NCBI GenBank assembly: GCA_002835545.1
Contig: PIZK01000007.1
Coordinates: 1-64,000, forward strand
Direction of reading: 5' to 3'
Origin: Alteromonadales bacterium alter-6D02
GTDB lineage: Bacteria; Pseudomonadota; Gammaproteobacteria; Enterobacterales; Psychrobiaceae
DNA length: 64,000 nucleotides
Both the position numbers and the translations under genes were made by a program. Every line of letters begins with the position of its first letter. Within the stretch, counting starts at the first letter, position 1. The notes beneath the pieces were generated by a model, which saw only the letters and a program-made list of their open reading frames with translations, was not told the origin of the DNA and ran no database searches. Below, in pieces: positions 19,847-34,932 of this stretch.

Positions 19847-21046
19847 ATGATAATCAAGCCTAAAATTCGTGGTTTCATCTGTACCACTACTCATCCAACT
19901 GGCTGTGAAGCAAACATTAAGCAGCAAATTGAATTTACCAAAGCGCAACCAAAATTAGAAAATGCACCTAAAAATGTATTAGTGATTGGTTCTTCAAGCG
20001 GCTACGGTATGCCATCACGTATCAGTGCAGCTTTTGGCGGCGGCGCTAACACCATTGGTGTTTTCTTTGAAAAAGCGGGTACTGAACGTAAAACAGGTAC
20101 TGCGGGTTATTACAACGCTGCGGCTTTTGATAAAGCGGCTCATGAAGCTGGCTTATACGCAAAGAGCTTTAATGGCGACGCCTTCTCACACGAAGCAAAA
20201 GCGAAAGTTATTGAAACAATTAAAGAAGACTTAGGTCAAATCGACTTAATCATCTATTCTCTTGCTGCACCAGTACGTAAACTACCTGACAGCGGTGAAG
20301 TGATTCGTTCTTGCCTAAAACCTATTGGTGAAACATACACTTCTACAGCAATCGACACCAACAAAGACACTATTATTGAAGCGTCAATCGAGCCAGCAAC
20401 ACAAGCTGAAATTGATGACACGGTTACAGTAATGGGCGGTGAAGATTGGGAATTATGGGTTAACACGCTACACGAAGCGGGCGTTTTAACTGATGATTGT
20501 AAAACAGTTGCCTACAGCTACATCGGTACTGAGCTTACTTGGCCTATCTATTGGGATGGCGCATTAGGTAAAGCTAAGGAAGATTTAGATCGTGCAGCAT
20601 CAGCATTGAACACTAAGCTTTCAAGCACTGGCGGTCAAGCTAACGTTGCTGTATTAAAATCTGTAGTAACTCAAGCAAGTTCAGCAATTCCTGTTATGCC
20701 ACTATACATCTCAATGGCATTTAAAGTGATGAAAGAACACGGTATTCACGAAGGCTGTATGGATCAAGTGTTCCGTTTATTTAGTACTAAACTTTACACC
20801 AATGAGCAAAACATCGAGACTGATGATAAAAATCGTTTCCGTCTTGACGACTGGGAACTGCGCGATGACATTCAACAAGCGTGTCGCGATATTTGGCCAC
20901 AAGTCACCAGCGAAAACATTTTCGAACTAACCGACTACGCTGGTTATAAGAAAGAGTTCTTACAATTATTCGGCTTTGAAGTTGACGGTGTTGATTACGA
21001 CGCTGATACTAACCCACAAGTTGAATTTGACGTTATCGATATTTAA
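19847..21046 (+). CDS. fabV: trans-2-enoyl-CoA/ACP reductase FabV
   Basis: NADH-dependent enoyl reductase that completes each round of fatty-acid elongation; triclosan-tolerant alternative to FabI. 399 aa, full length. The N-terminus [12 protein letters not shown] is typical, followed by the dinucleotide motif GSSSGYG at 48-54. The catalytic Y-x8-K is Y235 and K244. GGEDWELW also matches the family. It lies far from the fab cluster at 44.8-50.4 kb, and no fabI is visible in the window. A strong terminator follows. Its last ~50 bp and the downstream 425 bp are duplicated at 24.95 and 26.62 kb, and cassettes begin just after this region. Confidence 0.97.
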
Positions 21047-21471
21047 TCGATTCGTTAACTGCTCTACAAAAGTTTCACAGTCATTGTGAAGTGACCCCCA
21101 GCCATTGGACATTCCGATGACTGGGGGTCTTTTTGTATTAAAGTATCAAAGGGGTTAATTGAACACTCACGAAGCGAACTCAGCAAATACACCCTCTCTC
21201 GACTAGCTACAGAGATAATTTTTCTAACCAACCTCCTTTACTCACTTTATCGATAAAAAAACCTCATTAAACACTAGCTTTATATACAGCCCTTTAGGTT
21301 TATTACAATTTGCAGCATTAACATACTTTTTTGACAGCTAATAAGAGGAAAGAAATAGCGAGAAACATATAATTAATTGTAATAAAAGCATATTTACGCT
21401 AAGTTTCTCTTTTAAAATCGGCTACGCGAGACGAACAAATATCGCGGTCGTCGCCGTACAATAAGCTGTTA
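20998..21471 (+). repeat. fabV-tail repeat, copy 1 (native), ending at cassette junction GTTA
   Basis: Covers the last 49 bp of fabV, its terminator and a ~330-bp AT-rich leader with no ORF, ending ATAAGCTGTTA. Copies 2 (24949-25421) and 3 (26624-27128) match it over this whole length, roughly nine bases in ten by eye. All three diverge immediately after GTTA, where a different cassette starts each time. Just upstream of the junction an imperfect inverted repeat (TACGCGAGACGA / TCGTCGCCGTA) could fold. The junction therefore behaves like an integron recombination point (G^TTA), attI-like or attC-like. Confidence 0.85.
21093..21135 (+). terminator. fabV rho-independent terminator
   Basis: GACCCCCAG (21093-21101) pairs perfectly with CTGGGGGTC (21121-21129), followed by TTTTT. 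It is conserved, with changes, in both downstream fabV-tail copies. Confidence 0.88.
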
Positions 21472-21519
21472 GCACTACAGGCAGGGTTAATCACAATCTG
21501 ATGAAAAGTTTTATACATA

Positions 21520-22725
21520 ATGTTATTTGATAAAGATCGTCACGAACCTCTCACCAAAACCTCATGGGATAAAAATATTGTGCAGGCAGAAATATCGTCA
21601 ATTATCGATGATATTCAGCGCTCACTATTACCTGATGCTTGTTGGCCCACGCATCCACTTGATGCAGAAAGCTACCCTAGAGTTGGGCCTAAATGGTCCG
21701 CATACGCAGGGGCTGCAGGCACAATTCACGCTTTACAAATCCTTAACGAATATGGATATAAAGTAAATGATTTGTCAGGGTTAATTGAAGGTGTTTACCA
21801 GTCTTTTTTGAAAACACCTGATGTATCAGTAGAGCCGGGCTTACAAATAGGTGAACTCGGCATACTAATGCCCGCAATGTTAGTGCAACCTGATAATGAA
21901 AAATTATCAAGACTAGTTATGCGATGCATGGAAGATACTATAGATCTTCCTCTGTATGAAATAACTTCTGGACAAAGTGGAATGATGCATGCTGCCCTAG
22001 CTCTTTATCGGAAGTCGGGTAAAAGTCATTGGAAAGATTTGTTTGTTAAGGGCGCAAAGTCATTAATGGATAACTGGACACAAGATACCGAGACGGGCGA
22101 ATGGCTTTGGCAAAGCCAAGTATTTGGGCCTAAGCGGCATTATTATGGTGCTTGCCATGGTATAACTGGCAATGCCAATATTCTTTTACAAGGCGCTGAT
22201 TTATTACCCGAGGGTTACACCGAAATGATAATTAAGCGTACGGTTGCTACTTTAAATATTTCAGTAAAACAAAAAGATAACTTAGCAAATTGGACGCTCT
22301 GTACTAAACCAAATATTGATAAATTGCTTGTTCAATGGTGTCACGGAGCAGCAGGTGTTGTTACAGCAATGTCAAGAACACCAGCGATTGATTCACCTGA
22401 ATCTAAACTACTTGATGAGTTGTTAGACGAAACGGGGGAGCTAGTTTGGCAAGCAGGGCCTCTCCTAAAAGGTTCTAATATCTGTCATGGGACATCTGGT
22501 AACGGTTACGCCTTTTTGTATTTGTACCAAAAAACGGGGAAGTCGGTATGGCTTGAGAGAGCAAGAAAATTCGCAATGCACTCTATTGAGCAGTGCCAGA
22601 AAGCACGCTTGCATTACGGGCAAGGCCGATTTACCTTATGGACTGGAGACGCTGGGCTTGCAATATATTTATATCATTGCATGTATCCTGAAAAAGCGGC
22701 TATACCGGGCTTGGATTTATTTTAA
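21520..22725 (+). CDS. LanC-like (lanthionine synthetase C family) protein, cassette gene
   Basis: 401 aa, an alpha/alpha-barrel LanC-like protein. All three zinc ligands are present: C274 (WCHG), C322 and H323 (CHGTSG). A further CHG occurs at 212-214. LanC enzymes add Cys thiols to dehydroamino acids; stand-alone homologues (LanCL-like) can act on glutathione or damaged proteins. No LanB, LanM or precursor peptide gene is nearby, so lantibiotic synthesis is unlikely. First cassette of the array: it begins 49 bp after the GTTA junction and is followed 8 bp after its stop by an attC. No strong ribosome-binding site is visible. Confidence 0.85.
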   Translation: MLFDKDRHEPLTKTSWDKNIVQAEISSIIDDIQRSLLPDACWPTHPLDAESYPRVGPKWSAYAGAAGTIHALQILNEYGYKVNDLSGLIEGVYQSFLKTPDVSVEPGLQIGELGILMPAMLVQPDNEKLSRLVMRCMEDTIDLPLYEITSGQSGMMHAALALYRKSGKSHWKDLFVKGAKSLMDNWTQDTETGEWLWQSQVFGPKRHYYGACHGITGNANILLQGADLLPEGYTEMIIKRTVATLNISVKQKDNLANWTLCTKPNIDKLLVQWCHGAAGVVTAMSRTPAIDSPESKLLDELLDETGELVWQAGPLLKGSNICHGTSGNGYAFLYLYQKTGKSVWLERARKFAMHSIEQCQKARLHYGQGRFTLWTGDAGLAIYLYHCMYPEKAAIPGLDLF

Positions 22726-22733
22726 GTATATAG

Positions 22734-22832
22734 TGCTAACAAGCTGTTAAACAAGGACAAAAACAGTTGGTTTTTGCTCCTTCGTCGCTTATTTTAATCA
22801 ACTATTTTTTGCCTGTTAACAGGGCGTTATGT
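22734..22832 (+). repeat. attC-like site 1 (~99 bp class)
   Basis: R''-like TGCTAAC at 22734 and R' GTTATGT at 22826-22832. The arms AACAAGCTGTTAAACA..CAAAAACAGTTG and CAACTATTTTTTGCC..TGTTAACAGGGCGTT pair with the unpaired spacer and bulges typical of VCR-like attC hairpins. It follows the LanC-like cassette gene. Confidence 0.85.
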
Positions 22833-22860
22833 GCCAGTAAGGATCGGAGATTACAGATAA

Positions 22861-23352
22861 ATGTCAGTAAAGAATATCAATGACAGGATCCCTTCCTACA
22901 AAAAAGCGTTTGCTAGCGGGGAAATACAAGAAATTTATCAAAGCCTTGTTGGGAGAATACAAGGTCTCAGAACAGAGTTTAATAAAAACTATAAGGGGCA
23001 ATTTTCGGTTGCAAATATACTACACGGCTATATCGACTTTACTTACTTTTATTTGCAAAACGATTTCCTTAAAAAACGTAAGCTCAAATTGGCAATTGTG
23101 CTTAATCACCAAGAAGCACGTTTCGAGTTATGGCTGCTGGGTCAAACAAAAGATGTACAGATCAACTATTGGAAAAAGTTACAGGGTGTTAGTTGGGTAA
23201 ACGAAAACTTAATGCCAGAGTGGTCTATCTTTGAAATTGTCATGCTTGCTAACCCAGATTTTGACAATCCCAAGGTTTTATCAGATTCTATTCAAAGTAA
23301 ATTTAATACTTTGTCAGAAGAGATTTTTGAAGTATTGAAAAAATATGAGTAA
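22861..23352 (+). CDS. uncharacterised cassette protein (163 aa)
   Basis: 163 aa, no signal peptide or TM segment, mixed alpha/beta composition with motifs GYIDFTYFY and ARFELWLLGQ. I do not recognise a characterised family; it resembles hypothetical proteins common in integron cassettes. The weak GGAG-like (GATCGGAG) is 12 nt before the ATG. The gene lies between attC 1 and attC 2 in the cassette orientation. Confidence 0.8.
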   Translation: MSVKNINDRIPSYKKAFASGEIQEIYQSLVGRIQGLRTEFNKNYKGQFSVANILHGYIDFTYFYLQNDFLKKRKLKLAIVLNHQEARFELWLLGQTKDVQINYWKKLQGVSWVNENLMPEWSIFEIVMLANPDFDNPKVLSDSIQSKFNTLSEEIFEVLKKYE

Positions 23353-23355
23353 TGC

Positions 23356-23410
23356 ACATAACAAACAAGAATAGGTGTCGCGCAGCCGACACCTTATTCG
23401 GGTGTTGGAC
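23356..23410 (+). repeat. attC-like site 2 (55-bp class)
   Basis: R'' ACATAAC (23356-23362) and R' GTTGGAC (23404-23410, fits GTTRRRY). Between them GAATAGGTGTCG pairs with CGACACCTTATTC, with a one-base bulge. Nearly identical sites occur at 26190, 28286 and 30180. Confidence 0.8.
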
Positions 23411-23984
23411 AAGCCCGAAGCCCTTCTTTTTATAGTAAATAGTGCAAGGTGTACCAGTGGTGATCAAGCCTAAATAATAAACTCAAGCCAAGTCGTGTTA
23501 GTGCATAACGTGTGTTCACGTTATATCAAGTGGTTAGCTATTTTTAGTTGTTGTTCTTCTCATATTGCTCCTCTCATTTTGTTGATGCCATTCTCCTTAT
23601 TCTCGGTATCGCTTAGCTGGTTCGCGTGATGCCACTTCAGTGGCAACAAGGACAAATGCGTTTAGCGCGTGGTGGTGTCGGTTGGAATAATTAAGGGACA
23701 TGCATTAATTTCCCTCTTCTCACTGGGCTTGTAATTATGGTGATATGTTTATGCCTGTCTTTTATTTCTTTCTGTGACGGGACGCACCTCGCGGACATAA
23801 GCATCAATGGTTGATGGGCGTTTACCTAGCACGCGAAGGTTGGTAAGATATTGTTGATAAAGGGTATTAAAGCGTTGTTGTTCGGCGGTGTTCATCGTGA
23901 TGTCTCCAGTTAAAACGCACCAAGTGGTGGTTTATCTGGTTAAGTATGAACAACCGCGAGTATACTCTGCCGCGGAGCGGCTTC
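23411..23984. mobile_element. decayed IS91-type element remnant (copy A)
   Basis: 574 bp between two attC sites. The left part (23411-23620) matches 26245-26380, which flanks a recognisable IS91 transposase C-terminus, and includes the sequence just beyond the transposase stop. Around 23665-23690 a scrap with the same TGGTGGTGTCGGTTG string remains. The right part holds the tyrosine-recombinase fragment. There is no intact gene. I infer an IS91-family insertion that lost most of its transposase. Confidence 0.6.
23749..23895 (-). pseudogene. N-terminal fragment of a tyrosine recombinase
   Basis: 48-aa minus-strand frame beginning MNTAEQQRFNTLYQQYL and containing LRVLGKRPSTIDAYVREVR, the N-terminal SAM-like DNA-binding segment of phage/IS91-linked integrases. 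It stops before any catalytic Arg/Tyr region, so it is non-functional. A similar start region recurs at 29465-29565. Such integrase genes commonly sit next to IS91-family transposase genes. Confidence 0.6.
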
Positions 23985-24086
23985 GTTCAACAAGAATTTA
24001 AAGCGGGACTGCTAACAGTTTGCTCGGTTTCGCTACGCTACACAATTTTAGCAAACTATTATCAGTCCCTTAAATGGGCGTTATAC
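23985..24086 (+). repeat. attC-like site 3 (~100-bp VCR-like class)
   Basis: R'' GTTCAAC (23985-23991) and R' GTTATAC (24080-24086). AATTTAAAGCGGGACTG..AGTTTGCT pairs with AGCAAACT..CAGTCCCTTAAAT, with extrahelical bases and a ~25-nt loop. Almost identical to site 6 at 27802. It precedes the esterase cassette. Confidence 0.85.
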
Positions 24087-24102
24087 GCAAAACGGAGTTT
24101 GG

Positions 24103-24939
24103 GTGAAATTTCTACCTTATATTTTCATATTTCTTTTCATTAATTCTATTCAATTAGTCAAAGCTCAAGATAGAAATACCTTTGAAATTCCTCGAAGTAA
24201 TGTTATCGAGATTCAAGATCCTGATTCCGGAAGGGTTTACCCTCTTTTTATAAAATTACCACGCTCATATAACAGCCAAGAAGATAAGTCATATCCTGTT
24301 ATCTACTTAACCGACGCATGGTATAGTTTCCAAATTGTATCTGGCGCTACTAGATTTCCAATGAATACAGGAAAAATGAAAGAGGCAATAATTGTCGGGA
24401 TTTCATACTCAAAAGGATCTAAAGGCCCCTCTAGTCGGATTCGTGACTATACTCATACTGAAGATTCAAGCTGGAAGTTTCAAACAGGAAAAGCGAAAGA
24501 ACATATTAGTTTTATTGAAAAGTCAGTTTTCCCTTTCATTGAAAAAAACTACAGAGTAAATGAATCTAGGACTTTTGTTGGTAATTCACTTGGTGGACTA
24601 TTTGGGGCATACATATTATTTACTAAACCTGATATGTTTAATAATTATGTCCTAGGCAGCCCATCTGTTTGGTTTAAAGATAATGATATTCTTAAAATTA
24701 AAACAGATCCTAATTTAAATAAGCACAAGGTGTTTATTGCTGTTGGTGCTAATGAGACTATTCAACTGGATTCGCCAAAACACGACATGGTTAAAGGTGC
24801 AAAGGAACTTGAGTTGAAGCTATCAGGTGAATTATTCCCTAATACAAAAGTAAAGCTATTAACTATTCAAGGCGCAAATCATGAAACTGCGTTCCCAACT
24901 ACTGCAATTCAAGGGTTGTATTGGCTGTTCAAAGAGTAG
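24103..24939 (+). CDS. secreted alpha/beta-hydrolase esterase (Fes/EstD-like), cassette gene
   Basis: 278 aa. A signal peptide (hydrophobic 3-19, VKA-Q) precedes an esterase-D-fold hydrolase: FVGNSLGGLFGAY carries the nucleophile Ser, and GANHETAFP supplies the C-terminal His. Relatives hydrolyse siderophores or peptides linked by esters; the substrate here is unknown. Start is GTG at 24103 with GGAG 5 nt upstream. It follows attC 3, but no attC follows: fabV-tail copy 2 begins 10 bp after its stop, so the cassette's own attC has been lost and integrase could not excise it alone. Confidence 0.85.
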   Translation: MKFLPYIFIFLFINSIQLVKAQDRNTFEIPRSNVIEIQDPDSGRVYPLFIKLPRSYNSQEDKSYPVIYLTDAWYSFQIVSGATRFPMNTGKMKEAIIVGISYSKGSKGPSSRIRDYTHTEDSSWKFQTGKAKEHISFIEKSVFPFIEKNYRVNESRTFVGNSLGGLFGAYILFTKPDMFNNYVLGSPSVWFKDNDILKIKTDPNLNKHKVFIAVGANETIQLDSPKHDMVKGAKELELKLSGELFPNTKVKLLTIQGANHETAFPTTAIQGLYWLFKE

Positions 24940-24948
24940 TGATAATTG

Positions 24949-25421
24949 CGACGCTGATACTAACCCACAAGTTGAATTTGACGTTATCGATATTTAATCG
25001 ATTCACTAACTGCTCTATAAAAGTTTCACAGTCATTGTGAAGTGACTCCCAGCCATTGGACACCCCGATGATTGGGGGTCTTTTTTTATTAAACTATCAA
25101 AGGGGTTAATTGAACACTCACGAAACGAACTCAGCAAATACACCCTTTCTCGACTGGCTACAGAGATAATTTTTCTAACCAGCCCCCTTTACTCACTTTA
25201 TCGATAAAAATTACATTGAACACCGGCTTTACATACTGCCCTTTAGGTTTATTACAATTTGCAGCATTAACATACTTTTTTGGCCGCTAAGTAAGAAGAA
25301 AGAAATAGCGATATACATATAATTGCTTGTAATAAAAATATATTTGCGCTAAGTTTCTCTTTTAAAATCAGCTACGCGAGACGAACAAATATCGCAGTCG
25401 TCGCCGTACAATAAGCTGTTA
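24949..25421 (+). repeat. fabV-tail repeat, copy 2
   Basis: Begins within the fabV coding end (ACGCTGATACTAACCC), keeps the last 48 coding bases and the terminator (25044-25087, one weakened pair), and runs to ATAAGCTGTTA at 25421. It is truncated from fabV, so it encodes nothing. It shares several variants with copy 3 and not with copy 1 (for example AAAAATTACATTGAACACCGG and TTTTGGCCGCTAAG), so copies 2 and 3 are closer relatives. Confidence 0.88.
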
Positions 25422-25439
25422 GGTACTCAGGGAAGAATT

Positions 25440-25883
25440 ATGCAATCCAAAGTATATAGATCGTTAGCTTTAGCATTTTCATTTGGTGTTATTTTTTATG
25501 CTCTATTGGTTACAGCTTGGGGTTATATCCCTCTATTTAATCCTATAACTAATTGGTTATTAGATAACTTTGCAGGTTATCAATGGATTAGTGCATTGAT
25601 TTATTTTCACGATTTTATACTAAATATTGTGTTGGGCTTTCCTTTGGCACTCTTAATTCATGTGCTAAAACCTAAGCGTTATTTATTGTATTTAGCGGTT
25701 GCTCTTTTGCCCGCTTTTATTTGGTCAAATAGCGCTTGGATCAATAATCCAAGTTTTTATGAGCATTGGACTTCAATTGTTATAGGGTGGGCAACAAGTC
25801 TTTTTAGTGTGCCAATAGCATTGTTTATAATTTGTTGGTATAACAAACACGTACCTAACAAGGGCATTAATCGGATTCCGTAA
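25440..25883 (+). CDS. four-TM membrane protein, cassette gene
   Basis: 147 aa, about four TM segments (9-28, 45-72, 83-97, 115-137), no recognised family. It begins 19 bp after the fabV-tail copy 2 junction, with GGGAAG 4 nt before its ATG. It is followed after 6 bp by a lipoprotein gene in the same cassette, so this cassette carries two genes. Confidence 0.75.
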   Translation: MQSKVYRSLALAFSFGVIFYALLVTAWGYIPLFNPITNWLLDNFAGYQWISALIYFHDFILNIVLGFPLALLIHVLKPKRYLLYLAVALLPAFIWSNSAWINNPSFYEHWTSIVIGWATSLFSVPIALFIICWYNKHVPNKGINRIP

Positions 25884-25889
25884 GCAGTC

Positions 25890-26195
25890 ATGTTTCGTGT
25901 AATATTTTCGTTCGTGATTATAATCTTAATTTTTGGTTGTAGTGATTCAACTCAACAACTTACTCCAAAAATGGAAAAAATGGCTACTCAAACTGTCATT
26001 AAATATTTAGAACGAAATGATTTACCGAATGAGAATTTGGTTGTATCAATATCAAAAAATAGAGCTATTGCCGATTTTTCATTCATGTATACAGGCAGTG
26101 GGCGTTGTATTAATTTTATTGTTAAGTGTTATGGAAATGACTGTACTAGTTTGCAAAAATATCCGTACGATGAGCACGGAGAAAAGTGCCCATAA
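25890..26195 (+). CDS. small lipoprotein, cassette gene
   Basis: 101 aa with a lipoprotein signal (hydrophobic 4-15, lipobox IFGC, Cys17). The mature part has several Cys (RCINFIVKCYGNDC), suggesting disulfides in the periplasm. No known family. The stop codon lies inside the R'' box of the following attC, a usual cassette arrangement. Function unknown; it probably shares a transcript with the membrane protein upstream. Confidence 0.7.
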   Translation: MFRVIFSFVIIILIFGCSDSTQQLTPKMEKMATQTVIKYLERNDLPNENLVVSISKNRAIADFSFMYTGSGRCINFIVKCYGNDCTSLQKYPYDEHGEKCP

Positions 26196-26244
26196 CAAAC
26201 AAGAATAGGTGTCGCGCAGCCGACACCTTATTCGGGTGTTGAAC
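26190..26244 (+). repeat. attC-like site 4 (55-bp class)
   Basis: R'' CCATAAC (26190-26196), R' GTTGAAC (26238-26244, fits GTTRRRY). The hairpin arms are the same as in site 2. The downstream ~35 bp (AAGCCCGAAGCCCTTC...) also match those after site 2. Confidence 0.8.
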
Positions 26245-26370
26245 AAGCCCGAAGCCCTTCCTTTTATAGTAAATAGTGCAAGGTGTTCACGTGATATCAA
26301 GTGGTTAGCTATTTTCAGTTGTTGTTCTTCTCATATTGCTCCTCTTATTTTGTTGATGCCATTCTTCTTA

Positions 26371-26622
26371 TTATCGGTACCGCTTAGCGCGTGGTGGTGT
26401 CGGTTGAGGGGCTGGAACGAGCCAGTATGTTAGCGATAACAACAGGCTGAGGATACGCAAGCGTAAGGCTTTGGCGTTACCGTGTAAAAAACCGTAATCA
26501 CGTACTCGCTGTAACCCCTTAGGCAGCACATGCTGCAAGATAAGCCATAAAAACTTGAGTGTAGGTAAGGTACGATACTTACGTGTTTTCGTTTGACTGT
26601 CTTGGTCGCTAAATGTCACGGT
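26371..26622 (-). pseudogene. C-terminal fragment of an IS91-family transposase
   Basis: Minus-strand frame with YRTLPTLKFLWLILQHVLP and GLQRVRDYGFLHGNAKALRLRI, the C-terminal signature of IS91-type (Y2, rolling-circle) transposases. It ends PRAKRYR at 26371. The N-terminal catalytic part is missing. The frame runs on to an ATG at 26646, but its first eight codons are antisense to the fabV fragment, so the junction at about 26623 is a breakpoint. IS91 elements can mobilise flanking DNA by one-ended transposition, which may explain how a fabV tail came to lie here. Confidence 0.8.
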
Positions 26623-26623
26623 A

Positions 26624-27128
26624 GACTGGGAACTGCGCGATGACATTCAACAAGCGTGTCGCGATATTTGGCCACAAGTTGAATTTGACGTTATCGATAT
26701 TTAATCGATTCGCTAACTGCACTACAAAAGTTTCACAGTCATTGCAAATTGCCCCCCAGCCATTGGACACTCCGATGACTGGGGGTCTTTTTTTATTAAA
26801 GTATCAAAGGGGTTAATTGAACACTCACGAAACGAACTTAGCAAATACACCCTCTCTCGACTGACTACAGAGATAATTTTTCTAACCAGCCCCCTTTGCT
26901 CACTTTATCGATAAAAATTACATTGAACACCGGCTTTACACTCTGCCCTTTAGGTTTATTACAATTTGCAGCATTAACATACTTTTTTGGCCGCTAAGTA
27001 AGAAGAAAGAAATAGCGATAAACATATAATCGCTTGTAATAAAAACATATTTACGCTAAGTTTCTCTTTTAAAATCAGCTACTCGAGACGAACAAATATC
27101 GCAGTCGTCACCGTACAATAAGCTGTTA
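26624..27128 (+). repeat. fabV-tail repeat, copy 3 (longer, with internal deletion)
   Basis: Starts further inside fabV than copy 2, matching fabV from 20849. It jumps from the first CCACAAGT (20897) to the second (21014), a clean 117-bp deletion between 8-bp direct repeats. It then follows the tail, the terminator (near 26750-26795) and the leader to AAGCTGTTA at 27128. It adjoins the IS91 transposase fragment on its left and a new cassette on its right. Confidence 0.88.
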
Positions 27129-27145
27129 TTTCGCTAGTGAGATTT

Positions 27146-27370
27146 ATGGACGACGTTGAGATTAAATTAACAAAGGATGAAGCATTAGTGCTTTTTGATT
27201 TCCTCTCACGTTTTTCCAACGAAGATAAATTGAGTATTCATGACAAAGCAGAGGAACGCGCATTGTGGAACCTAACCTGTTTATTTGAAAAGTCTCTTCC
27301 TGAGCCTTTTTCTAAAGAGTGGCAATCCATAATTGAAGGTGCGAGAAATAGACTGCGAGATGATACATAA
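27146..27370 (+). CDS. small acidic cassette protein (74 aa)
   Basis: 74 aa, starting MDDVEIKLTKDEALVLFDFL and rich in Glu/Asp, predicted helical, no TM segment. It resembles short hypothetical proteins widely found in cassettes and genomic islands. I chose the ATG at 27146, with GTGAG 4 nt upstream, over an in-frame GTG at 27137. First gene after fabV-tail copy 3. Confidence 0.75.
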   Translation: MDDVEIKLTKDEALVLFDFLSRFSNEDKLSIHDKAEERALWNLTCLFEKSLPEPFSKEWQSIIEGARNRLRDDT

Positions 27371-27375
27371 TCGCG

Positions 27376-27485
27376 AAATAACAAGCCCATGAAGGCTGAT
27401 TCGCAACGCTGTCACATTGATTGAAGAGAACAAAAGGCGCAATCAATACGCCAGCATTGCTCTCGGCTTATAGGGGCGGTATATT
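27376..27485 (+). repeat. attC-like site 5 (~110 bp, degenerate R')
   Basis: R'' AAATAAC (27376-27382). The right end GGGGCGGTATAT departs from GTTAT. The arms AACGCTGTCACATTGATT and AATCAATACGCCAGCATT pair well around a ~17-nt loop, and GGCTGA pairs imperfectly with TCGGCTTAT. Structure supports an attC with a mutated R' box. Confidence 0.65.
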
Positions 27486-27796: not shown

Positions 27797-27801
27797 TGTA
27801 A

Positions 27802-27903
27802 ATATAACAAGAATTTAAAGCAGGACTGCTAACAGTTTGCTCAGTTTCGCTTCGCAACACAATTTTAGCAAACTATTAGCAGCCTCTTAAATGGGCGTTA
27901 TGA
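27802..27903 (+). repeat. attC-like site 6 (~100-bp VCR-like class)
   Basis: R'' ATATAAC (27802-27808), R' GTTATGA (27897-27903). Arms, bulges and loop are almost the same as in site 3 (TTTAAAGC..GGACTGCTAA..AGTTTGCT / AGCAAACT..TTAGCAG..TTAAA). The most clear-cut attC of the array. Confidence 0.88.
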
Positions 27904-28381: not shown

Positions 28382-28528
28382 ATGTTAGAGTTAAAAAGTA
28401 ATATTGTATTTTTCAGTTCAAATAATAGCTGGATTCAGTTTTTTGCTTTTATGTTGGTGTTTGTTCCTGTTCATTTAGTTTTGACTTTAATATTCAAAAA
28501 GCTGGGTGTTTTGAAAACGAATAATTAA
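28382..28528 (+). CDS. possible 48-aa single-TM cassette protein
   Basis: Short frame MLELKSNIVFFSSNN... with one strongly hydrophobic stretch (19-41) and a basic C-terminus. No good ribosome-binding site and no family. Its stop overlaps the start of an IS remnant, so it may be a truncated gene. Cassette position and orientation are the main support. Confidence 0.4.
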   Translation: MLELKSNIVFFSSNNSWIQFFAFMLVFVPVHLVLTLIFKKLGVLKTNN

Positions 28529-28652
28529 GGGGCAAGCATGAATTTCCCCCTTCTCACTGAGCTTGTAATTATGGTGATATGTTTGTGCCTGTCTTTTATT
28601 TCTTTCTGTGATAGGAAGCACCGCGCGCGTATACTCTGTCACGAGCGGCTTC
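28522..28652. mobile_element. decayed IS91-type element remnant (copy B)
   Basis: AATTAAGGGGCA to TTTCTGTGATAGG matches 23690-23780 and 29353-29450. It then joins directly to the GTATACTCTG..GCGGCTTC segment that also precedes attC 3. The recombinase start region is deleted here. Non-coding. Confidence 0.55.
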
Positions 28653-29336: not shown

Positions 29337-29689
29337 ACATAACAAACAAGAATCGAATAATTAAGGGGCAGGCAGGAATTTCACCCTTCTCACTGAGCTT
29401 GTAATTTTGGTGATATGATTATGCCTGTCTTTTATTTATTTCTGTTATACGACGCCCCGCGCGAATATAAGCCCCCATGGGTGATGGGCGTTTACCTAGC
29501 AAGCAAAGGTTGATAAGATGTTGTTGATAAAGGGGATTAAAGCATTGTTGTTCGGCAGTGTTCATTGCGAGTGCTCCAGTGATAGACCACTGACAGGTGG
29601 CCAGTCTGGATTAAGCACGAACAACTGCGCTGGCGCTCGTTCCTCGCTAATTTAGCCAAGTATAACCCACATTTCCTGCAGCGTTATGT
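29337..29689 (+). mobile_element. IS91-type remnant (copy C) between a left and a right attC half
   Basis: 29337-29354 is the left end of a 55-bp-class attC (ACATAACAAACAAGAAT), abruptly replaced by the AATTAAGGGGCA element (to about 29450) and the recombinase start region (minus, ATG at 29565). 29620-29689 is the right half of a long-class attC ending GCGTTATGT. The halves belong to different classes, so this is a rearranged junction, not one attC simply split by an insertion. Confidence 0.6.
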
Positions 29690-33642: not shown

Positions 33643-33741
33643 GTTAAAAATAAGTTACTTTAGTCTCTATGCAGCTAAGGTAATCTGCGTTAAATTAATT
33701 GACTCTTGATTATAGAAAAAGATTCAGCAAGGAAATTCATT

Positions 33742-34932
33742 ATGTTAGAACACTTGTCGGCGCTGCCAGCAGATCCTATCTTAGGCCTTTTAAAAGCTTA
33801 TGGCCAAGACACTAACCCAAACAAAGTCGACTTGGGTGTTGGTGTATTCAAAGACGATGCAGGCCACACGCCAATCCTTGCCTGCGTTAAAACCGCTGAA
33901 CAGTTCCGTATTGATAACGAAACATCAAAAATTTATATCGGCCCAACGGGTGAACCAGAGTTTAACCGCTTAATCAGCGAGCTTGTTTTTGGTGAGCACG
34001 ATGTGATTAGTCAAAATCGCAGCCGCACTCTGTCAACACCGGGCGGTACTGGTGCATTACGTGTTGCTGGCGAATTTATTAAAGCCTGTAAACCAAACGC
34101 TACCATCTGGCTAAGTAATCCGACATGGGCCAACCATGAAGGCTTGTTTAGTGCGGCTGGGTTAAACATCGCTAGCTACCCATATTATGATTACGAAAAT
34201 AAATGCTTAGATTTTGACGGCATGCTTAGCGCATTAAGCAATGTACCTGCAGGTGATATCGTATTACTTCACGCTTGTTGTCACAATCCAAGTGGTATGG
34301 ACTTAACCAAAGAACAATGGCAACAAGTCACCGCTTTAGCCAAGGAAAAGGGCTTCACTCCTCTGATTGATATGGCCTACCAAGGCTTTGGCCAAGGACT
34401 GGAAGAAGATGCATACGGGCCACGTTTAATGGCTAAAGAACTCGATGAAGTCTTGTTGTGTACGTCTTGTTCGAAAAACTTTGGTCTTTATCGTGAACGA
34501 ATCGGTGGCTTTACGTTAGTCGCTAAAAACAGCAATGTGGCTGATATTGCCTATTCTGTGGCTTTATCTGTGGTACGTAGTATCTATTCTATGCCACCAG
34601 CGCATGGCGCGGCTATTGTTAGCACGATTTTAAACTCTGACGAGCTCACTGGCCAATGGCATCAAGAGCTTGCTCAAATGCGTGATCGTATTGCCACAAA
34701 CCGCCAATTATTGGTTGAACACTTAAAGCTACAGGGCGTTGAGCGTGATTTTAGCTTTATTACCCGTCAATCAGGGATGTTCTCTTTCCTCGGCATTACC
34801 CCTGAGCAAGTCGCGACCCTGATCAATGACTACAGTATTTATATGGTGGATTCTAGCCGTATCAGCATTGCTGGTATTAGTAAAACCAATGTAGAGTACT
34901 TGGCTCAATCAATCGCTAAGGTCATCAAATAA
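33742..34932 (+). CDS. aspartate/aromatic aminotransferase (class I, AspC/TyrB type)
   Basis: 396 aa, exactly the usual AspC length, from the ATG at 33742 (AAGGAA 7 nt upstream; the frame is open to 33706). PLP-dependent transfer of the amino group between aspartate or aromatic amino acids and 2-oxoglutarate. LPADPILGL, TPGGTGALRVAGE, CHNPSGMDLT, DMAYQGFGQGLEEDA and CSKNFGLYRERIGG (PLP Lys) fit. Sequence is closer to AspC than to E. coli TyrB, but substrate preference cannot be decided. Confidence 0.93.
   Translation: MLEHLSALPADPILGLLKAYGQDTNPNKVDLGVGVFKDDAGHTPILACVKTAEQFRIDNETSKIYIGPTGEPEFNRLISELVFGEHDVISQNRSRTLSTPGGTGALRVAGEFIKACKPNATIWLSNPTWANHEGLFSAAGLNIASYPYYDYENKCLDFDGMLSALSNVPAGDIVLLHACCHNPSGMDLTKEQWQQVTALAKEKGFTPLIDMAYQGFGQGLEEDAYGPRLMAKELDEVLLCTSCSKNFGLYRERIGGFTLVAKNSNVADIAYSVALSVVRSIYSMPPAHGAAIVSTILNSDELTGQWHQELAQMRDRIATNRQLLVEHLKLQGVERDFSFITRQSGMFSFLGITPEQVATLINDYSIYMVDSSRISIAGISKTNVEYLAQSIAKVIK

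Follow-up and report, generated by a model that had tools for sequence, protein, structure and literature searches.

We analysed a 64,000-nucleotide window of Alteromonadales bacterium alter-6D02 (positions 1-64,000 of contig PIZK01000007.1, here C43), in which the core gene fabV is followed by stacked copies of an integron-like leader. C43 is a 112.5-kb contig of a 4.0-Mb draft genome in 45 contigs (G000), which was compared with its congeners G001-G009. The fabV 3' tail (49-80 nt) and the ~425-bp leader behind it form a threefold direct repeat with no integron integrase gene (intI) adjoining. As an earlier sequence-only reading had described, the homology of all three leaders stops at AAGCTG/TTA (the slash marks the break), and a different cassette follows each time (Table 1). 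In six relatives an aminotransferase gene stands directly after fabV, at about 200 bp; because the same gene lies at 33706-34932 here, about 12.6 kb has been added at the fabV locus relative to these genomes. Psychrobium/Psychrobiaceae bins are among the best named matches to fabV, in keeping with a Psychrobium-like gammaproteobacterium.

Table 1. Features of the fabV locus, in window coordinates (attI, cassette insertion site; Pc, cassette promoter; ORF, open reading frame)
Feature	Positions	Strand	Basis
fabV, intact, 399 aa, core-gene anchor	19847-21046	+	ORF; relatives L009-L014
Leader copy 1: fabV terminator, putative integrase-less integron leader and attI ending G21468/TTA	21047-21471	+	
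Decayed LexA-like box CTAGCTTTATATACAG, left end of homology with asnS copy	21274-21289	+	
Predicted Pc (TTGTAA-17-TAAGTT), copy 1	21377-21405	+	conserved in orphan and intI-linked leaders
Putative attI core, copy 1 (CGAACAAATATCGCGGTCGTCGCCGTACAATAAGCTGTTAG)	21431-21474	+	homology to intI-adjacent attI of G001:C105
First cassette, copy 1: LanC-like protein 21520-22725; R'' 22731-22740; attC 22730-22832	21469-22832	+	
attC before esterase cassette	23981-24086	+	covariance model
Esterase cassette, attC missing, cut by junction 24948/24949	24103-24939	+	
Displaced fabV tail 2, 49 nt, identical to 20998-21046	24949-24997	+	
Leader copy 2 with predicted Pc and putative attI (G25418/TTA)	24998-25421	+	
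Predicted Pc, copies 2 and 3	25327-25355 and 27034-27062	+	
First cassette, copy 2: 147-aa membrane-like ORF; R'' 25851-25859; remainder of attC deleted	25419-25883	+	
IS91-type Y2 transposase, C-terminal fragment, cut by junction 26623/26624	26371-26622	-	PF04986, E=7e-12
Displaced fabV tail 3, matching 20849-20904 and 21022-21046	26624-26704	+	
Leader copy 3 with predicted Pc and putative attI (G27125/TTA)	26705-27128	+	
First cassette, copy 3: 77-aa ORF; R'' 27373-27382; attC 27372-27484 with mutated R'	27126-27484	+	
attC of later cassette in copy-3 array	27798-27903	+	covariance model
attC, 95% over 97 nt to one in intI array on C8	28649-28752	+	covariance model

The leaders are 92.4% (1 versus 2), 91.7% (1 versus 3) and 94.6% (2 versus 3) identical, and the copy tree has the order ((2,3),1). 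The sequence-only reading had noted that copies 2 and 3 share variants absent from copy 1; these amount to about 25 substitutions and three indel columns, and with a further copy near asnS as outgroup, nine of the shared variants are derived in copies 2 and 3 and five in copy 1. The coding tails, in contrast, are identical to native fabV at 49 of 49 (copy 2) and 80 of 80 positions (copy 3), and differences begin about 12 nt past the stop codon, so that 0/129 tail positions are changed against about 8% of leader positions (Fisher p 0.003 for copy 3 and 0.06 for copy 2). The sequence-only reading put the copies at 20998, 24949 and 26624. Copies 2 and 3 start at different points of fabV: the tail of copy 2 starts 49 nt upstream of the stop, and that of copy 3 starts 198 nt upstream, at 20849, but lacks the 117 bp from 20905 to 21021, a deletion flanked by CCACAAGT repeats. 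Neither left junction of a displaced copy is an integron junction, that of copy 2 following an esterase cassette without attC and that of copy 3 interrupting a Y2 transposase of the IS91 type within its C-terminal portion.

The cassette junctions at the right ends of the leaders are of a different kind. The first cassettes begin with GTTAGCACTA, GTTAGGTAC and GTTATTTCGC in copies 1 to 3 and with GTTAGAGGTA at the asnS copy, and the corresponding attC starts read TAGTGCTAAC, GTACCTAAC, GCGAAATAAC and TACCTCTAAC. At all four leaders of G000 the first cassette has an R'' that complements the 9-10 nt directly past the break, compared with 3 of the 233 other GTTA sites of the window, where a 9-nt complement was sought within 1.3 kb. 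Because R'' complements the cassette start in this way and so few control sites do the same, the three fabV leader breaks are true integron junctions; at most congener leaders the complementarity extends over 7-10 nt. The terminator or hairpin of fabV was rejected as a recombination site, the breaks being at the attI GTT and not at the terminator. Five attC sites were called between 22730 and 28752 by covariance model, which was used after a strict folding screen gave too few sites; two or more suffice for a cluster of attC sites lacking integron integrases (CALIN). The array segments 23353-23617 and 26187-26388 are repeated noncoding cassette DNA (94% identical), and arrays of G000 also have attC or cassette segments in common: C8 and C43 share 97 nt at 95% identity, and C43 and C9 share 273-342 nt at 91-95%. 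In addition, a noncoding element of ~120-255 bp recurs in several cassettes (window 23681-23939, 28515-28633 and 29351-29609), and parts of this region are found in arrays on C9 and C37 (84-95%).

The nature of the leader can be read from its congeneric homologs. In the congener search, its last 40-45 bp match the attI beside a true integron integrase in G001:C105, and other orphan leaders, which have no intI alongside, are homologous to this intI-attI region over 150-219 bp. For the orphan on G001:C247, the match to the intI-linked leader extends to C105:371 and so into the very beginning of intI (start codon at about C105:358). The leader is interpreted as the left end of an integron minus intI, in which remains of the intI promoter would be followed by Pc and then attI. 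A promoter-like pair TTGTAA-17-TAnnTT scored in 18 of the 23 leaders, and the predicted Pc (TTGTAA-17-TAAGTT) is conserved across loci. Three congener orphans and the intI-linked leader have a perfect LexA-type box (CTGT-N8-ACAG, 8/8) about 180-200 bp from the break. Conservation among orphans is higher in the attI core (0.76) than in the leader sequence next to it (0.64; baseline 0.54). All three fabV copies thus combine homology to an intI-linked attI with a complementary R'', which argues for the earlier proposal that the leader is an attI-type insertion site with its own cassette in each copy. A complete integron has intI adjacent to attI; at this locus fabV lies directly left of the leader, and no intI was found on C43.

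The leader module recurs across the genus. R1, a leader-finding model comprising the last ~110 bp of the leader, was applied to G000 and the congeners and places the module at many loci in G000, G001, G002, G006 and G008; matches with E above about 1e-3 (in G004, G005, G007, G009 and on C13 of G000) were excluded from the leader count. The weak match on C13 is also without a complementary R''. A fourth copy in G000, comprising the last 217 bp at 71% identity, stands upstream of asnS (C4:255775-255992) and is followed by cassettes with no intI; because it lies on another contig, the leader is not fabV-specific. About 15-20 further integrase-less sites were found in four congeners, up to seven per relative, including one downstream of the 6S RNA gene in G001:C196 (Rfam RF00013) and one downstream of ssb in G008:C79. 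Core genes that are unrelated to one another stand no more than a few hundred bp from the orphan leaders; the left neighbours, named from a reading of their translations, include fabV, asnS, ssb, groEL, ssrS, dapB, nadA with a tRNA gene, pdxH with a tRNA gene, metK and pstB. The module on G001:C105 is the only one with intI alongside. Under stricter filters, R1 found no leader module in 286 other genomes of the order, none of them from the genus, and the leader had no match in plasmids, phages or viral contigs.

The dapB locus of G001 bears a second stack, formed by two leaders (93% identical) with one cassette between them, in which only ~153 bp of leader is repeated without any host-gene tail. 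This stack, and modules beside asnS, ssb, groEL, dapB and ssrS that carry no fabV sequence, speak against the earlier suggestion that the fabV tail itself is a portable insertion platform.

Several side observations concern these orphan loci. In the asnS region, a 72-bp attI-leader fragment lies between two ggacagtcataaatt repeats (L089 8143-8214; G000:C4:258142-258213) near a Y1 transposase gene (L089 8310-9293), and looks as if it had been moved by a REP-type (repetitive extragenic palindrome) element. The asnS cassette array also contains two partial copies of an apparent IS110-type transposase gene (L089 6656-7018 and 7430-7780), recognised from the translation only. In G002, contigs C126 and C94 (L163 and L165) carry two versions, about 92% identical, of a LysR gene, an orphan leader and the same first cassette, and are probably two haplotypes in one bin.

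Integron integrases were counted as TIGR02249 matches over the family cut-off. In G000 the only one is on C8 beside sucD, and no integrase is thus near the fabV arrays. It is of type A, sharing 58-72% identity with the type-A integrases of G002, G004 and G005 and about 46% with those of type B (G001, G004 and G008), and it has its own attI (GACTAATATACTGTTAG), unlike the leader. Among the congeners, G001 and G008 have one type-B intI each, G002 one type-A and a broken type-B, G004 one of each type, G005 one type-A and G009 one; G003, G006 and G007 have no intI over the cut-off. Orphan sites are nevertheless kept in G000, which has no type-B intI, and in G006, which has none at all. A TIGR02249 fragment on C23, considered as a lost type-B intI of G000, proved to be a broken phage-type recombinase. 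On the assembled type-B intI contig of G008 (C181, L167), the sequence ends in an apparent sequencing adapter just past the LexA box, and attI is absent from the assembly.

The sucD locus offers a direct comparison, with intI, attI and cassettes in G000 versus attI and cassettes without intI at the orthologous position in G006. Here too a host-gene end is repeated: the sucD 3' tail with its terminator occurs three times beside the G000 intI (L008 6355-6809, in G000:C8:200000-219000), and all five differences between the third tail and sucD are synonymous. The stretch between sucD and intI also contains a unit of roughly 220-250 bp (cgtcatcccgcaagtcttttatgcgggatctcacacc..., L008 6830-7890) that occurs four or five times in tandem. 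In G006 the type-A attI and cassettes at sucD (L180, G006:C2:158000-170000) are followed downstream by two near-identical Y1 (RAYT-like) transposase genes.

We consider it probable that the three-copy stack arose by import of fabV-leader-cassette DNA from related lineages, the leader being the left end of an integron without intI. An integron integrase would have docked cassettes at the leader G/TTA, and related-lineage DNA carrying fabV, leader and cassettes would then have recombined into the fabV locus with the intact gene as left homologous anchor, its right end being joined illegitimately into the resident fabV tail. With each such import the previous set of tail, leader and array would be moved further downstream and end up behind a random junction; copy 3 would be the oldest. 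The intact anchor upstream and the truncated remnants downstream, at 24948/24949 and 26623/26624, form the pattern of sequential displacement, which is the same at sucD and lacks the host tail at dapB. That copies 2 and 3 start at arbitrary points, cutting a cassette and a transposase, is as expected for illegitimate ends, and because the displaced fabV tails stand at such non-site-specific junctions, they look like passengers rather than a platform. A role as homology anchor, which the sequence-only reading had also proposed for the tail, is plausible for the intact gene and not for the displaced tails. The suggestion in that reading that copies 2 and 3 came from a separate lineage fits the data. 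The Y2 transposase fragment before copy 3 raised the possibility of IS91 rolling-circle transfer, which is not favoured, since the transposase is itself cut by the junction and nothing comparable precedes copy 2.

A tandem duplication within a single lineage, in which fabV tail, leader and cassettes were copied locally and later diverged while an integrase exchanged the first cassettes, would account for the copy tree order and for the noncoding segments repeated across the three arrays. We regard it as unlikely: useless tails should drift like the leaders, yet only the leaders have changed, the repeated array segments occur also in another G000 array, on C9, and the exclusively synonymous differences of the third sucD tail are expected if it was once part of a working gene in another lineage. 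An intact gene with identical displaced tails is likewise the classical signature of site-specific integrative elements accreting at the fabV 3' end, with the tails as att sites, and several orphan leaders do lie at gene 3' ends, tRNA genes or ssrS. However, the same leader follows each tail, which an unrelated element would not carry, the tails start at different distances from the stop codon, and among the array ORFs examined (21.5-33.6 kb) no recombinase was recognised apart from the IS91-type fragment, making this explanation very improbable. As to an assembly artefact, the genome is a draft and other arrays end at contig ends, but the copies differ by 5-9%, have unique junctions within one long contig and are paralleled by the dapB stack in another species; we give this reading hardly any credence.

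Several observations weigh against the import from related lineages or against the integron origin of the leader. With leaders that differ by 8%, the full identity of the fabV tails to the native gene can be explained by purifying selection in separate lineages. Between the G002 haplotypes, however, the LysR coding sequence is 93% identical versus 90% for noncoding DNA, and by this yardstick complete tail identity is surprising. No strain with one or two fabV leader copies was found. In the fabV and asnS copies the LexA-like box matches at 5-6 of its 8 positions, too few for significance if taken by itself, and the second sucD tail adjoins a 34-N scaffold gap (C8:206482-206515) between the first and second tails.

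Whether the orphan sites are still in use bears on a further possibility, a distributed integron in which one SOS-regulated integrase acts in trans on many kept Pc-attI sites at core-gene ends. G001 and G008 would fit such a system, each combining a single type-B intI with at least six orphan attI sites; first cassettes are well formed there and at most orphan sites. The elevated conservation of the attI core would fit as well, as would the attC and cassette segments common to the intI-linked or main array and the fabV array in G000. Conservation of the core could, however, predate the loss of intI, orphan sites persist in G000 and G006 without a type-B integrase, and IntI1 excises attI-cassette-attI units at near 100% (PMC12901181), so that stable stacks speak against strong activity. 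We therefore hold a distributed integron to be possible but doubtful, and lean towards relic attI sites in G000, with use in trans possible in G001 and G008. If such a system exists, several loci could take up and express new cassettes simultaneously, and entire platforms would be exchanged and stacked via recombination anchored in the neighbouring core gene.

These genomes thus appear to contain dispersed and stacked pieces of integrons. A limited literature search gave no account of a genome with more than one Pc-attI module lacking intI, nor of such modules being stacked, and a prior description is possible. The origin of CALIN is an open question between loss of intI and cassette insertion at unrelated sites. 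It becomes testable here, since attI and Pc are recognisable at many loci, a congener has an intI-linked version, and intI is present or absent at the orthologous sucD locus. The arrangement also implies that attI need not always be one per integron and that surveys by intI and attC alone can overlook platforms, while stacking would be a route by which whole cassette platforms could pass between lineages without an integrase.

By its sequence features, the fabV stack can be classed as a CALIN that retains a predicted Pc-attI. CALIN have been proposed to be degraded integrons (PMC9024848); in Xanthomonas they occupy several fixed loci with progressive loss of integrase function (PMC12444791), and in Treponema phagedenis attC sites are kept without intI (PMC3607928). 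The arrays described here are similarly chromosomal, lack a neighbouring intI and occupy several loci, and complete integrons exist in the genus as well. They differ in that the clusters start with a recognisable Pc-attI module, in some cases with a LexA box, which is common to unrelated loci and is stacked at fabV and dapB. IntegronFinder seeks attI only for class 1 integrons (PMC9024848), so that a Pc-attI class of CALIN could be missed. Sedentary chromosomal integrons share Pc, attI and attC arrays with our loci, and the LexA box and intI with the intI-linked G001 member, but have one attI instead of several per genome and intI beside it. The esterase ORF without attC, with a fabV tail and then an entire leader behind it, resembles the Delta-attI-type cassettes and attI-ORF-attI units of class 1 and 2 integrons (PMC12901181), where attI likewise stands inside the array after an ORF without attC. 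In those units, however, short attI fragments or one complete attI replace attC in an intI-bearing integron, whereas here the whole promoter-attI leader and a piece of a core gene are repeated. Insertion at attG (PMC12901181, PMC12444791) also places cassettes outside the intI-linked site, at unrelated genomic targets, while the present leaders are homologous to attI over 45-219 bp. A parallel for the displacement itself is with the effector-immunity arrays of the Vibrio cholerae type VI secretion system, where a new module is inserted at a conserved upstream anchor and old 3' remnants are pushed downstream, for which homology-facilitated illegitimate recombination has been proposed (PMC5361080); at fabV, by contrast, an ordinary core gene would serve as anchor and the modules would be cassette-bearing integron platforms.

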